Shown here: positions 5,773-10,954 of the stretch, in pieces
Layout of the letters: every line of letters starts with the position of its first letter
Position numbering within the stretch: position 1 is the first letter of the stretch
Assembly: GCF_000243155.2 (NCBI RefSeq)
Contig: NC_018017.1
Coordinates: forward strand, 2,356,001-2,420,000
From: Desulfitobacterium dehalogenans ATCC 51507
GTDB taxonomy: Bacteria; Bacillota; Desulfitobacteriia; Desulfitobacteriales; Desulfitobacteriaceae
Length of the DNA: 64,000 nt
Direction of reading: 5' to 3'
Notes under the pieces: generated by a model
What the model saw: only the letters and a program-made list of their open reading frames with translations
What the model was told of the DNA's origin: nothing
Databases searched by the model: none
Program-made: the position numbers and the translations under genes

Positions 5773-6366
5773 TTAACCTCTTCTTTTATCAGAGAATTTG
5801 CTGTAAGCCCGAGGCTTACCCAGCACCTCTGCCCAAATAACTCCTTGTACAAGCGGATTTTCAGACAATGCTGGGAAAGCAGCTCTTTCATGATCTATGG
5901 GCTTAGGAGAAGTGTTCCTCGGTTTACGCTCAGGTTTCCCAAGGGATTCCCTTCTTATTTCTCCTTCTCTTCCAAAAGCCCCTTCGCTGCCCGCGCTCCC
6001 TTCAACACCAACGGTTCCTTCAGTTCCCCAAGACCCTTCCGTAGAGAAGCCCTCAACTCTTTCAGTGCCTTCTCCACGATAGTCCTGAGTGGTACTCGGA
6101 TATCTTTTGACAGTAGATGGACGAGAAGGTTGGCCTACAGGCTCTTCTTTAGGGAACAATTCCCGTTCCAGTTCCTCAAACATCTCTCGCCAACTTGGCC
6201 GGGTAGACTTTGTTTCCTGCCGTGAATAAGGAGTACGGCTGCGTTGTGGTCCCTGAGGTCCAGTATTAGATGGACGTCGGTTTTGTGGTTTTTTCTTATC
6301 CGAACCGAAGATTGTTGCAACTGCATAGATGAAAATTATAATAGGTAACCATGAGAATAAATCCAT
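5773..6366 (-). CDS. membrane-anchored, disordered protein downstream of floA
   Basis: A 197-residue protein without a recognised domain. Residues 4-20 form one membrane segment, followed by a basic stretch (DKKKPQNRR) that suggests the rest is cytoplasmic. Residues 85-150 are low-complexity, with repeated E-G pairs such as EGTVGVEGSAGSEG. The last 40 residues (NPLVQGVIWAEVLGKPRAY) look ordered and may be a docking motif. The gene starts about 15 bases after floA and is followed by the operon terminator, so a role with the FloA/NfeD membrane scaffold is inferred only from position. Confidence 0.75.
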   Translation of the reverse strand: MDLFSWLPIIIFIYAVATIFGSDKKKPQNRRPSNTGPQGPQRSRTPYSRQETKSTRPSWREMFEELERELFPKEEPVGQPSRPSTVKRYPSTTQDYRGEGTERVEGFSTEGSWGTEGTVGVEGSAGSEGAFGREGEIRRESLGKPERKPRNTSPKPIDHERAAFPALSENPLVQGVIWAEVLGKPRAYSKFSDKRRG

Positions 6367-6381
6367 TCCATCTTCACCACC

Positions 6382-7377
6382 CTACTTTTTCGGGTTGGGG
6401 TCAGTGTTAGGGTTGCTGGAACGAGCAATGTTATCCCGCATACTCGTGTCAGCCATAATATTTTGCATATTGTAATAATCCATAACTCCCAGTTTTCCTT
6501 CTTTTAATGCTCCTGCTAAAGCTCTGGGCACTTCAGATTCGGCCTCAACAACTTTTGCACGCATTTCTTGAACATAGGCAATCATTTCCTGCTCTTTGGC
6601 TACCGCCATAGCTCTACGCTCCTCAGCTTTAGCTTGGGCAATGCGCTTATCTGCCTCCGCTTGGTCTGTTTGCAGTTGAGCACCGATATTCTTACCCACA
6701 TCCACATCGGCAATATCGATGGAGAGAATCTCAAAGGCCGTTCCTGAATCTAAGCCTTTGGCCAAAACCGTACGAGATACCATGTCTGGGTTTTCCAAAA
6801 CTTGCTCATGAGACTGAGATGAACCGATACTGGTGACAATTCCCTCTCCGACACGGGCGATAATGGTTTCCTCTCCTGCTCCACCGACGAGACGATCGAT
6901 ATTGGCACGAACGGTTACCCGGGCTTTGACACGAAGCTCGATTCCATTCTTAGCCACAGCAGAGACAATAGGCGTTTCAATGACTTTAGGGTTAACGGAC
7001 ATTTGAACTGCTTCTAATACATCACGGCCTGCCAGGTCGATAGCGGCAGCTCTTTCAAATTGGAGAGGAATAGCTGCACGTTCCGCTGCAATCAGAGCAT
7101 TGATGACTTTATCCACATTACCGCCGGCCAGATAATGGGCTTCCAACTGAGCGGTGGTCACATGTAATCCGGCTTTATGGGCCTTAATTAAGGGATTGAC
7201 GATCCGAGAAGGAGTAACACGTCTTAATCGCATTCCGATTAAAGTAAAGATCCCTACATTAACACCTGCGGCCAAAGCTGAAATCCAAAGGCCTACGGGA
7301 ATAAAGGTAAATACGATACTGATAAGAATAAAAGCTAACGCTAAAAGAATGATTGGCACTAAACTTCCAATGGTCAT
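6382..7377 (-). CDS. floA: flotillin-like protein FloA
   Basis: Membrane scaffold of the SPFH family that forms foci and organises functional membrane microdomains. An N-terminal hydrophobic hairpin (about residues 5-45, with [16 protein letters not shown]) is followed by the SPFH core and an Ala/Glu/Arg-rich coiled coil (about 230-290, e.g. [17 protein letters not shown]). A longer frame begins with GTG at 7401, but that GTG is part of the GGAGGTG ribosome-binding site. Starting at the ATG of 7375-7377 gives 331 residues, the length I recall for Bacillus FloA. A GCCC-TTTT-GGGC hairpin lies between the site and this ATG. nfeD is directly upstream, as in many Firmicutes. Confidence 0.9.
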
Positions 7378-7420
7378 ATCATTCGCCCAAAAGGGCTTCA
7401 CCTCCGATTTTTATAGTCTA

Positions 7421-7897
7421 CTAAGAAATTTTCCGGACGATAACCCGTGTCCCTTCCACTGCAATAACTTTTACTTTACTGTGAATTTCGACGAAACCTC
7501 CTTCTGTAACAACATCCAATCTTTTGCCATTAAAGTCTGCTGTTCCAGCTGGACGCAAGGGACTGAGTGCCACGCCCTCATAACCCACATAGCTCTCCAG
7601 ATCCGGAGTAGGAGCGACATAGCCCTCATTATTGGATTGTTTGGCATTTAATGAAAATCGCTTCCAAAACCGCCGCGTGCGGGGAAATCGAAAGCTTAAA
7701 GCGATAAGAATTCCCAGGACAAGCAGAAAACTGCAGACATAAGCCACCCCATGTAAAGCAGATTCTGCCGTCAGGAAAATTCCTGTCGATAAAAGAACCA
7801 GCCCCGCTATCCCTAAGATTCCACCAGGAATAAAAATCTCCAAAAACAAGAAACATAAACCCAGAATAATTAAAGACACTACCCCGCCAGTCACCAT
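7421..7897 (-). CDS. NfeD family membrane protein (short form)
   Basis: Usual partner of flotillin-like proteins. Three to four membrane helices fill residues 5-80 (with LEIFIPGGILGIAGLVLL). A C-terminal OB-fold of about 60 residues follows (YVGYEGVALSPLRPAGTADFNG ... VEGTRVIVRKIS, split here for brevity). The N-terminal ClpP-like protease domain of long NfeD proteins is absent, so this is the short type. Start ATG with GGAGGG 8 bases upstream. It lies between the DUF1836 gene and floA in one operon. Confidence 0.88.
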   Translation of the reverse strand: MVTGGVVSLIILGLCFLFLEIFIPGGILGIAGLVLLSTGIFLTAESALHGVAYVCSFLLVLGILIALSFRFPRTRRFWKRFSLNAKQSNNEGYVAPTPDLESYVGYEGVALSPLRPAGTADFNGKRLDVVTEGGFVEIHSKVKVIAVEGTRVIVRKIS

Positions 7898-7939: not shown

Positions 7940-8527
7940 TTATTGGGGCTCTTGTGGAATATTGGTTGGAGAAATATTCTTCAACCATTGTTGAGCTATT
8001 TGCTTATAGAGATTTGCCCTGGCCAAAAGATTTAAAATGACTAGGGTCGCAGCCACTTTATCTTTGTCATCTACGCTAAGATCTTCGCCTGCTAAAATTT
8101 GATTGACTTCCTTGGGCAGTTGTTCAAGAGAAGTAACCCAATCCTTTTGGGAGAGATCAAAGATCTCGCTGTAATACCCGTATAGCTTGGCAGGGTTAAT
8201 TCGGTCATCGGTATTATCAGCAAGGTTGAGGTTAACAAACCCCAATAATTGGGATGCTTCCTCGAGGGATAGGATATTTCTTAGATCGTTGATTAAAAGA
8301 ATGTTGGCAACCTGCTCTCGGGTATATTTCTTCTTATGAGGATTAGGCAGATACTTCCTCTTCACCCAATTCTGTATATGGGTGTTATTAATATCATTCT
8401 GACTGACTCGTTGAGCTACTTCCACCACCTGTGAAAGCATCATAGAATCCAGTTCCAGATAAGGTAATGCTTTCTTCTTCGGTTCAAAGTGGTTTGCTAT
8501 TTCAATGATATCCTTCAGATAATTCAT
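7940..8527 (-). CDS. DUF1836 protein, probable regulator of the floA operon
   Basis: A 195-residue protein matching the DUF1836 pattern. The first half looks like a MerR-type winged helix: IQNWVKRKYLPNPHKKKYTREQVANILLINDLR, here residues about 65-98 (read as two pieces, IQNWVKRKYLP and KKYTREQVANILL). The rest is helical. It has AGGAGGTGA before its ATG and is the first gene behind a perfect-consensus promoter with a palindrome in the spacer. Autoregulation through that palindrome is an attractive inference. No experimentally known function is claimed. Confidence 0.75.
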   Translation of the reverse strand: MNYLKDIIEIANHFEPKKKALPYLELDSMMLSQVVEVAQRVSQNDINNTHIQNWVKRKYLPNPHKKKYTREQVANILLINDLRNILSLEEASQLLGFVNLNLADNTDDRINPAKLYGYYSEIFDLSQKDWVTSLEQLPKEVNQILAGEDLSVDDKDKVAATLVILNLLARANLYKQIAQQWLKNISPTNIPQEPQ

Positions 8528-8654: not shown

Positions 8655-8683
8655 ATTATATGGTCACCATGACCATATGTCAA
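8655..8683 (-). promoter_or_regulatory. perfect sigma-A promoter with embedded 9-bp palindrome
   Basis: Minus strand: -35 TTGACA (8678-8683), 17-base spacer, -10 TATAAT (8655-8660), both exact consensus. The spacer is filled by a palindrome with arms ATATGGTCA (8658-8666) and TGACCATAT (8670-8678) around CCA, overlapping the -10 by three bases and the -35 by one. A bound protein would block polymerase, so this looks like a strong, tightly repressed promoter for the DUF1836-nfeD-floA operon. The leader is about 120 bases. Confidence 0.85.
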
Positions 8684-10117: not shown

Positions 10118-10954
10118 ATTATCCAGGTCGGTAAAATCAACCAACTCGAAGTTGCTAATCTCACTTCTTTTGGGGTCTATCTCAATGCAGGGACGGGTAA
10201 CCGTAAAGATAATGTTCTTCTGCCGGGAAATGAATGCCCTGACGACATAAAAGAAGGGGATAACCTAGAGGTATTCATTTACCACGATTCAGAAGGCCGT
10301 TTAATCGCCACTCGTAAAAAGCCCTTAGCACAAGTAGGAGAGCTTGCCTATCTTAAAGTTACAGCAAAGACAAAAATTGGCGCTTTTATGGACTTTGGCT
10401 TAGAACGTGGTCTCTTTCTCCCCTTCCGAGAGCAAAAACACCTCATAGAAGTGGACAAAAGTTATCTTGTGTATCTTTATCTCGACAAAAGCGGGCGCTT
10501 ATCTTCCACAACGGATATCACTGACTTTCTCAGCTCCGCTTCTCCTTATCAAAAAAATGACTCCATCACAGGAACAGTCTACCAAATCCATCCCGAAATT
10601 GGCGTCTTTGTAGCTGTTGATAATAAATATCTGGGCCTGATTCCCCGTACAGAGAATTATTCAGAGCTCAAATGGGGAGATCGGGTTCAGGCTCGAGTGA
10701 TTCGAGTCCGGGATGATGGAAAGCTGGACCTTTCTCCTCGCAATCTCTCTCACCAACAGATGAACGTGGATGCTGAGCTTCTCATCAACGCCATGAATGC
10801 CCATGGAGGAGTACTCCCTCTCAATGAAAAATCCAGTCCCGAGGAGATCGAAAAGGTTTTTCACATGAGTAAAGCCGCCTTTAAACGAGCAGTGGGGGCT
10901 TTGCTTAAGAGCGGACGCATAAAAAAGACCGGTGACGAACTCCGATTCCCCTGA
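10118..10954 (+). CDS. cvfB: CvfB-type S1 RNA-binding protein, apparent ATT start
   Basis: RNA-binding protein with several S1/OB modules and a C-terminal winged helix (residues about 215-278, EEIEKVFHMSKAAFKRAVG), the layout of CvfB. The first ATG in frame (10388) would delete 90 residues including the first S1 domain. Upstream the frame encodes IQVGKINQLEVANLTSFGVY, which is the family N-terminus. It is closed by TAG at 10103 and contains no ATG, GTG or TTG. AGGGAGG stands 7 bases before ATT at 10118-10120, so ATT is proposed as start (278 residues). A terminator follows the gene. Confidence 0.87.
   Translation: MIQVGKINQLEVANLTSFGVYLNAGTGNRKDNVLLPGNECPDDIKEGDNLEVFIYHDSEGRLIATRKKPLAQVGELAYLKVTAKTKIGAFMDFGLERGLFLPFREQKHLIEVDKSYLVYLYLDKSGRLSSTTDITDFLSSASPYQKNDSITGTVYQIHPEIGVFVAVDNKYLGLIPRTENYSELKWGDRVQARVIRVRDDGKLDLSPRNLSHQQMNVDAELLINAMNAHGGVLPLNEKSSPEEIEKVFHMSKAAFKRAVGALLKSGRIKKTGDELRFP

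Follow-up and report, generated by a model that had tools for sequence, protein, structure and literature searches.

A predicted DUF1836 autorepressor and its putative operator in the promoter of a flotillin operon of Desulfitobacterium dehalogenans

Introduction

Autorepressors of the MerR superfamily, such as GlnR and HspR, are encoded within the operon that they repress or as its first gene, and bind an operator that overlaps their own promoter and whose half-sites are separated by a gap of 7. In Bacillus subtilis, YkrK is described as the repressor of HtpX (PMC11790237, in excerpt); two papers published in the Journal of Bacteriology in 2012 deal with YkrK and htpX, one of them cited in that excerpt and the other in an excerpt of PMC11841835. 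The sigma-W operons of the same species include yqeZ-yqfA(floA)-yqfB, yuaF-yuaG(floT), and pspA-ydjGHI (PMC3498285, in excerpt). As for the domain of unknown function DUF1836, an excerpt of PMC3146951 states that Pfam places it in the HTH clan and links it to hemolysin III genes; no paper bringing DUF1836 and flotillin together was found in the literature searched.

The locus considered here belongs to a 64-kb stretch of DNA from Desulfitobacterium dehalogenans, which is referred to as the window. Four genes lie on the minus strand, the first of which (7940..8527) encodes a 195-aa DUF1836 protein with the helix THIQNWVKR, predicted to be a MerR-like HTH autorepressor on account of its Pfam family, a MerR profile comparison, and the match between helix and dyad set out below; its PF08876 match (E 9e-22) reaches 77.6 bits against a curated cut-off of 27, and an NCBIfam search with the protein gave only matches far below cut-off. 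It is followed by genes for a 158-aa NfeD-like membrane protein (7421..7897; PF01957, PF24961), the 339-aa flotillin-like protein FloA (6382..7401; PF12127, E 1.6e-166; NF010186), and a 197-aa product (5773..6366) that matches no Pfam family and is conserved after floA. The DUF1836 gene thus opens the floA operon, as an earlier note on this DNA had proposed.

Elsewhere in the window, on the plus strand, an S1-domain gene (CvfB-like, by eye; 10118-10954) has no ATG, GTG, or TTG near its expected start, where ATT (10118) ATC CAG GTC GGT comes after a GGGAGGG site; its relative at locus L140 likewise has no usual start there. ATT, which is the start codon of infC, may be the start codon of this gene at 10118.

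Comparison with YkrK, GlnR/HspR, and Sigma-W Control

YkrK can be approached through locus L189, where a DUF1836 gene lies between RsgI_M and Peptidase_M48 (HtpX-kind) genes, the position of ykrK in B. subtilis, and where a perfect dyad, TAAGTTCA-TT-TGAACTTA, is present; the B. subtilis control genome likewise contains PF08876. Given the RsgI-DUF1836-HtpX arrangement and the perfect dyad of L189, YkrK almost certainly belongs to DUF1836. The earlier note had held that a repressor role was not established for DUF1836; this view calls for correction, as the DUF1836 gene beside htpX occupies the position of the repressor YkrK. Both YkrK and the window protein are local repressors, predicted in the latter case, beside a membrane quality-control gene, and they have in common the helix QNW[VI]KR and the TGANC half-site, the YkrK side being read at L189 and not in B. 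subtilis. Held against the YkrK type, the window gene adjoins a membrane quality-control target, is the first gene in 23/23 loci, and presents the helix QNW[VI][KR]R with TGANC half-sites. The two systems differ in that YkrK is encoded divergently from htpX, its half-sites are separated by a gap of 2, and its target is a protease, whereas the window DUF1836 gene is the first of its operon, with a gap of 3 and a flotillin as target.

Like GlnR and HspR, the window protein is encoded in its putative target operon, as the first gene, with a putative operator lying over its own promoter, and a profile comparison suggests a MerR-like helix register; by contrast, the gap is 3 rather than 7, and the protein matches DUF1836 in Pfam and no MerR model. 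The floA, floT, and pspA operons under sigma-W in B. subtilis are of the same kinds as the putative targets of DUF1836, but at the window locus a predicted dedicated repressor is joined to a housekeeping consensus promoter where B. subtilis uses an ECF sigma factor promoter. Within the literature searched, this kind of regulator appears to be already known, while its flotillin member and the operator appear to be new.

A Consensus Promoter Overlapped by a Perfect Dyad

The promoter of the operon (8683-8655, minus strand) consists of the −35 hexamer TTGACA (8678..8683) and the −10 hexamer TATAAT (8655..8660) separated by a 17-nt spacer, with 127 nt between the −10 and the DUF1836 gene. It obtains a sigma-70-type consensus score of 12/12, in agreement with the exact consensus announced earlier; the rarity then claimed for it needs a refinement, since TTGACA-17-TATAAT in its exact form, although rare, occurs 20 times in the 4.32-Mb genome (the reversed pattern has no match). 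A perfect 9-3-9 dyad, ATATGGTCA-CCA-TGACCATAT, the putative operator, matches exactly at 8658..8678. The palindrome had been placed in the spacer; the dyad is exact, yet not wholly inside, as its 21 bp extend over one base of the −35 (the last) and three of the −10 (the first), and promoter sequence thus makes up part of its outer pairs. Its core (8662-8674) has the form GNTCA-N3-TGANC that is conserved and symmetric in the family; the window carries a perfectly symmetric G/C variant, GGTCA-N3-TGACC, of the family consensus GATCA-N3-TGATC. The exact dyad occurs once in the genome, the next best site having 2 mismatches; there are five weaker dyads with 2-3 mismatches, and of three of these, one lies inside a gene (L003) and one between genes (L002), while the start of a GroEL-like gene contains the third (L004, by eye).

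The contribution of promoter sequence to the outer part of the dyad, together with the 20 exact consensus promoters in the genome, might suggest a strong promoter bearing an accidental palindrome. However, chance would give only 0.02 matches to the dyad in the 64-kb window even when 3 mismatches are tolerated, and the core sits in the spacer, where the promoter imposes little constraint, yet it is conserved and symmetric, the dyad recurring in relatives; coincidence is accordingly given almost no credence.

Another of the exact consensus promoters of the same genome (L206, 131825-131853), which precedes a greA-like gene (by eye), has TGAACATATAAT at its end, as some floA promoters do, but is without the left half-site.

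Conservation of the Site in Orthologous Operons

A search for the DUF1836 protein covered 45 family genomes, with Desulfosporosinus among the named relatives, and yielded 29 full orthologous loci (L005-L033). TT[GT]ACA-17-TATAAT with the dyad in its spacer is found in 28 of the 29, the spacer being exactly 17 in 28/28. In the exception, L012 (G024; −112 to −84 relative to the match to DUF1836), the dyad, TGATCATAATGATC, does not lie in the spacer: it closely precedes the −35 of a TTTACA-17-TATAAT promoter. A lack of the palindrome near homologues had been named beforehand as grounds for refutation; instead, all but one of the orthologous operons keep it in this promoter. The position weight matrix (PWM) was built without this exception and without L001 and L034-L039 (duplicates, fragment, or distant), and alignment A2 without L027, whose stretch holds a stop. 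At L034 (G007), the floA-type DUF1836 gene is a fragment with an internal stop, and FloA was not found in G007.

The core columns of the dyad hold a mean information of 1.42 bits, compared with 0.19 in the 80 nt upstream and 0.35 in the 31 nt downstream. Its six symmetric pairs are complementary in 135/168 cases, a count reached by none of 20000 column permutations (maximum 121). The dyad is nonetheless imperfect in many relatives: strict GNTCA-N3-TGANC is present in 16/31 floA-type loci, and in 29/31 when one mismatch is allowed. With no more than 3 mismatches allowed, a 26-letter pattern, TTGACATATGATCA-N3-TGATCATATAAT, has 20 matches, one in each of 20 genomes out of the 45 and all directly upstream of the DUF1836 gene of this operon (control pattern: 0); the remaining orthologous loci are more than 3 letters away from it. 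The dyad alone, with at most one mismatch, yields 14 distinct sites in the 45 genomes (control: 4), 7 of them at the DUF1836-NfeD-FloA operon, including all 3 exact ones, and 7 elsewhere; a small regulon beyond the floA operon may exist.

The order DUF1836-NfeD-FloA is kept in 23/23 loci (some genomes counted twice), 22 of which also have a match to the fourth gene, while the upstream neighbour varies; since the operon stays the same while the genes upstream of it change, the site travels with the operon. A role of the site in controlling the divergent M29 peptidase gene is ruled out, as this gene lies upstream in only 3/23 loci.

The 28 promoters also share a conserved R-T-Y-A at positions 32-35 after the start of the −35, about 4-7 nt past the −10, which is possibly a start-site element or a third half-site.

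floA Loci without a DUF1836 Gene

A full FloA is encoded in all 29 family genomes with the DUF1836 orthologue; in the 16 family genomes without it, FloA is found in three (G006, G042, G044), a fragment in two, and none in eleven. A PWM scan of 20 floA loci lacking an adjacent DUF1836 gene found the promoter-dyad site in none of them: the best score is 12.5, whereas the 28 sites from which the matrix was built score 30.5-46.3. Three loci from a second family of the order, not included in the matrix, score 30.1, 29.2, and 22.9; they keep the right half-site, and their left half-site is degenerate. The autorepressor proposed earlier for the flotillin operon gains from this distribution, the dyad being present with the DUF1836 gene and absent without it. 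A dyad alone does not name its protein, and it could be the operator of another, unlinked regulator, with DUF1836 as a mere member of the operon. This is improbable: the site follows the DUF1836 gene (28/29) and not floA (absent in 20/20), further targets would be expected of such a regulator yet the full pattern occurs once per genome, and other DUF1836 genes with a QNW helix, described below, carry the same half-site beside other genes.

The score of 12.5 belongs to G006 (L140), where nfeD-floA-orf4 is kept and a DUF1836 gene was not found. Immediately ahead of nfeD, some 600 nt upstream of floA, there is a TTTACA-17-TATGAT promoter that has no dyad; we infer from the sequence that it would be a decayed relic and that the DUF1836 gene was naturally lost. 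A weak promoter devoid of the dyad is what would be expected if the dyad had served the lost protein and if a consensus promoter left unrepressed were too strong.

Classical MerR activators bind an operator between the −35 and −10 of promoters with spacers of 19-20 bp. The position of the predicted operator and the MerR-like helix register that profile comparison suggests for DUF1836 would suit such an activator, remodelling the promoter spacer. However, the spacer measures 17 in 28/28 sites and not 19-20 bp, and with near-consensus hexamers this leaves nothing for a MerR-type activator to correct; moreover, the locus devoid of DUF1836 has a weaker promoter, not a better one. Activation is on these grounds very improbable, even more so than an unlinked regulator.

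Helix and Dyad Classes of Other DUF1836 Genes

Beyond the floA operon, DUF1836 genes have as neighbours PspA/IM30 (L165-L169, L185, L188, L192; accompanied at some loci by NfeD-like and SPFH genes), an NfeD1b protease (L194), HlyIII (L170-L174, L195, L200, L202, L204), DegV (L175, L176, L198), an HtpX-type M48 protease (L184, L189, L190), or a CNNM protein (L186, L187), as labelled by Pfam on one example of each kind and by eye for the rest; no such membrane neighbour is seen at, e.g., L160-L164, L182, L196, L197, and L203. Forty other DUF1836 loci divide into two helix classes, [IVM]QNW (10) and [IVM]NNY (29); L182 has neither and stands outside every class count. All floA-linked DUF1836 proteins are QNW.

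In the 450 nt upstream, strict GNTCA-N2/3-TGANC-like dyads are present in 7/10 QNW and 1/29 NNY genes, and strict TAGT-N7-ACTA-like dyads in 0/10 QNW and 18/29 NNY genes, the reversed-sequence controls for these four counts being 2, 0, 1, and 3. With one mismatch allowed, the GNTCA dyad is found in 9/10 QNW versus 6/29 NNY genes (Fisher p 2e-4) and the TAGT dyad in 1/10 versus 22/29 (Fisher p 4e-4), both p values being uncorrected for relatedness and the looser TAGT pattern having high reversed controls (11/29). In these 39 loci, helix class thus predicts dyad class, and this match provides the strongest case for a direct reading of the dyad by DUF1836. Of L160-L164, a second DUF1836 group with a helix of the QNW class and without an evident membrane neighbour, 4/5 have a GTCA-N2-TGA(A)C dyad just past the promoter.

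The spacing of the half-sites is less uniform. The gap is 3 in 29/31 floA operons (other gaps: 2-11) and 2 in 9/10 other QNW genes, including those linked to htpX and CNNM; for NNY genes, a gap of 7 gives 13 strict matches in 29 versus 0-1. That the same helix goes with a gap of 3 at floA and of 2 at htpX/CNNM would be odd for a rigid dimer, and counts against the autorepressor reading.

Fold of DUF1836

In a profile-profile comparison (hhalign) with a set of 10 MerR domains from the same genome, the DUF1836 profile aligns over 56 columns with a probability of 72-82% and a score of 33.4, compared with a score of at most 14.6 and a probability of at most 0.62% in 60 column shuffles; in this alignment, QNW/NNY falls on the TLRYY-bearing helix of MerR. 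A MerR profile from 2 usable sequences had given no signal, and the 10-sequence profile was used instead. No MerR Pfam model matches the DUF1836 protein, which hits only PF08876 at E up to 0.001; a PDB profile search returned no HTH protein, its matches being non-HTH and at chance level, and AlphaFold2, given the window protein and three relatives, produced a poor model (pLDDT 43.9). The MerR-like HTH of the earlier note has the support of the comparison of profiles, but neither of the PDB sequence search nor of a usable structure model.

Proposed Mechanism

Taken with the distribution of the site and the pairing of helix and dyad classes, the sequence makes it very probable that the DUF1836 protein is a local autorepressor of DUF1836-NfeD-FloA, which would bind the spacer dyad and block RNA polymerase. 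The site, the operon, their conservation, the lack of the site where the gene is lacking, and the match of helix and dyad are observed; binding itself, repression rather than activation, the dimer, and the signal are what we infer. The protein, probably as a dimer, would bind GNTCA-N3-TGANC across the spacer of its own housekeeping promoter and exclude RNA polymerase, placing a very strong promoter under negative autoregulation; a strong promoter coupled to a self-limiting repressor would hold DUF1836-NfeD-FloA low until a signal releases it. This signal is most likely a change in membrane state, as suggested by the membrane-gene neighbours of DUF1836.

Significance for DUF1836 and Flotillin Control

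The flotillin target, the match of helix and operator, and the recurrent neighbours PspA, NfeD, HtpX, HlyIII, and DegV point to DUF1836 as a family of membrane-homeostasis repressors. A broader proposition is tentative, and we would doubt it somewhat more readily than accept it: DUF1836 may constitute a general membrane-state repressor family of the Bacillota, many members of which would control an adjacent membrane module (FloA/NfeD, PspA/NfeD/SPFH, HtpX, HlyIII, DegV, or CNNM) and take the place of sigma-W, with a two-class helix/operator code and with membrane or lipid sensing through their C-terminal part or the controlled product.

In the literature searched, the control of flotillin levels outside the sigma-W bacilli is not described via DUF1836; a named candidate regulator, an exact putative operator, and an apparent natural loss mutant would make flotillin induction approachable by reporter. 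For a domain of unknown function, the pairing of two helix classes with two dyad classes, both of which adjoin the same kind of membrane-maintenance genes, suggests a likely function.
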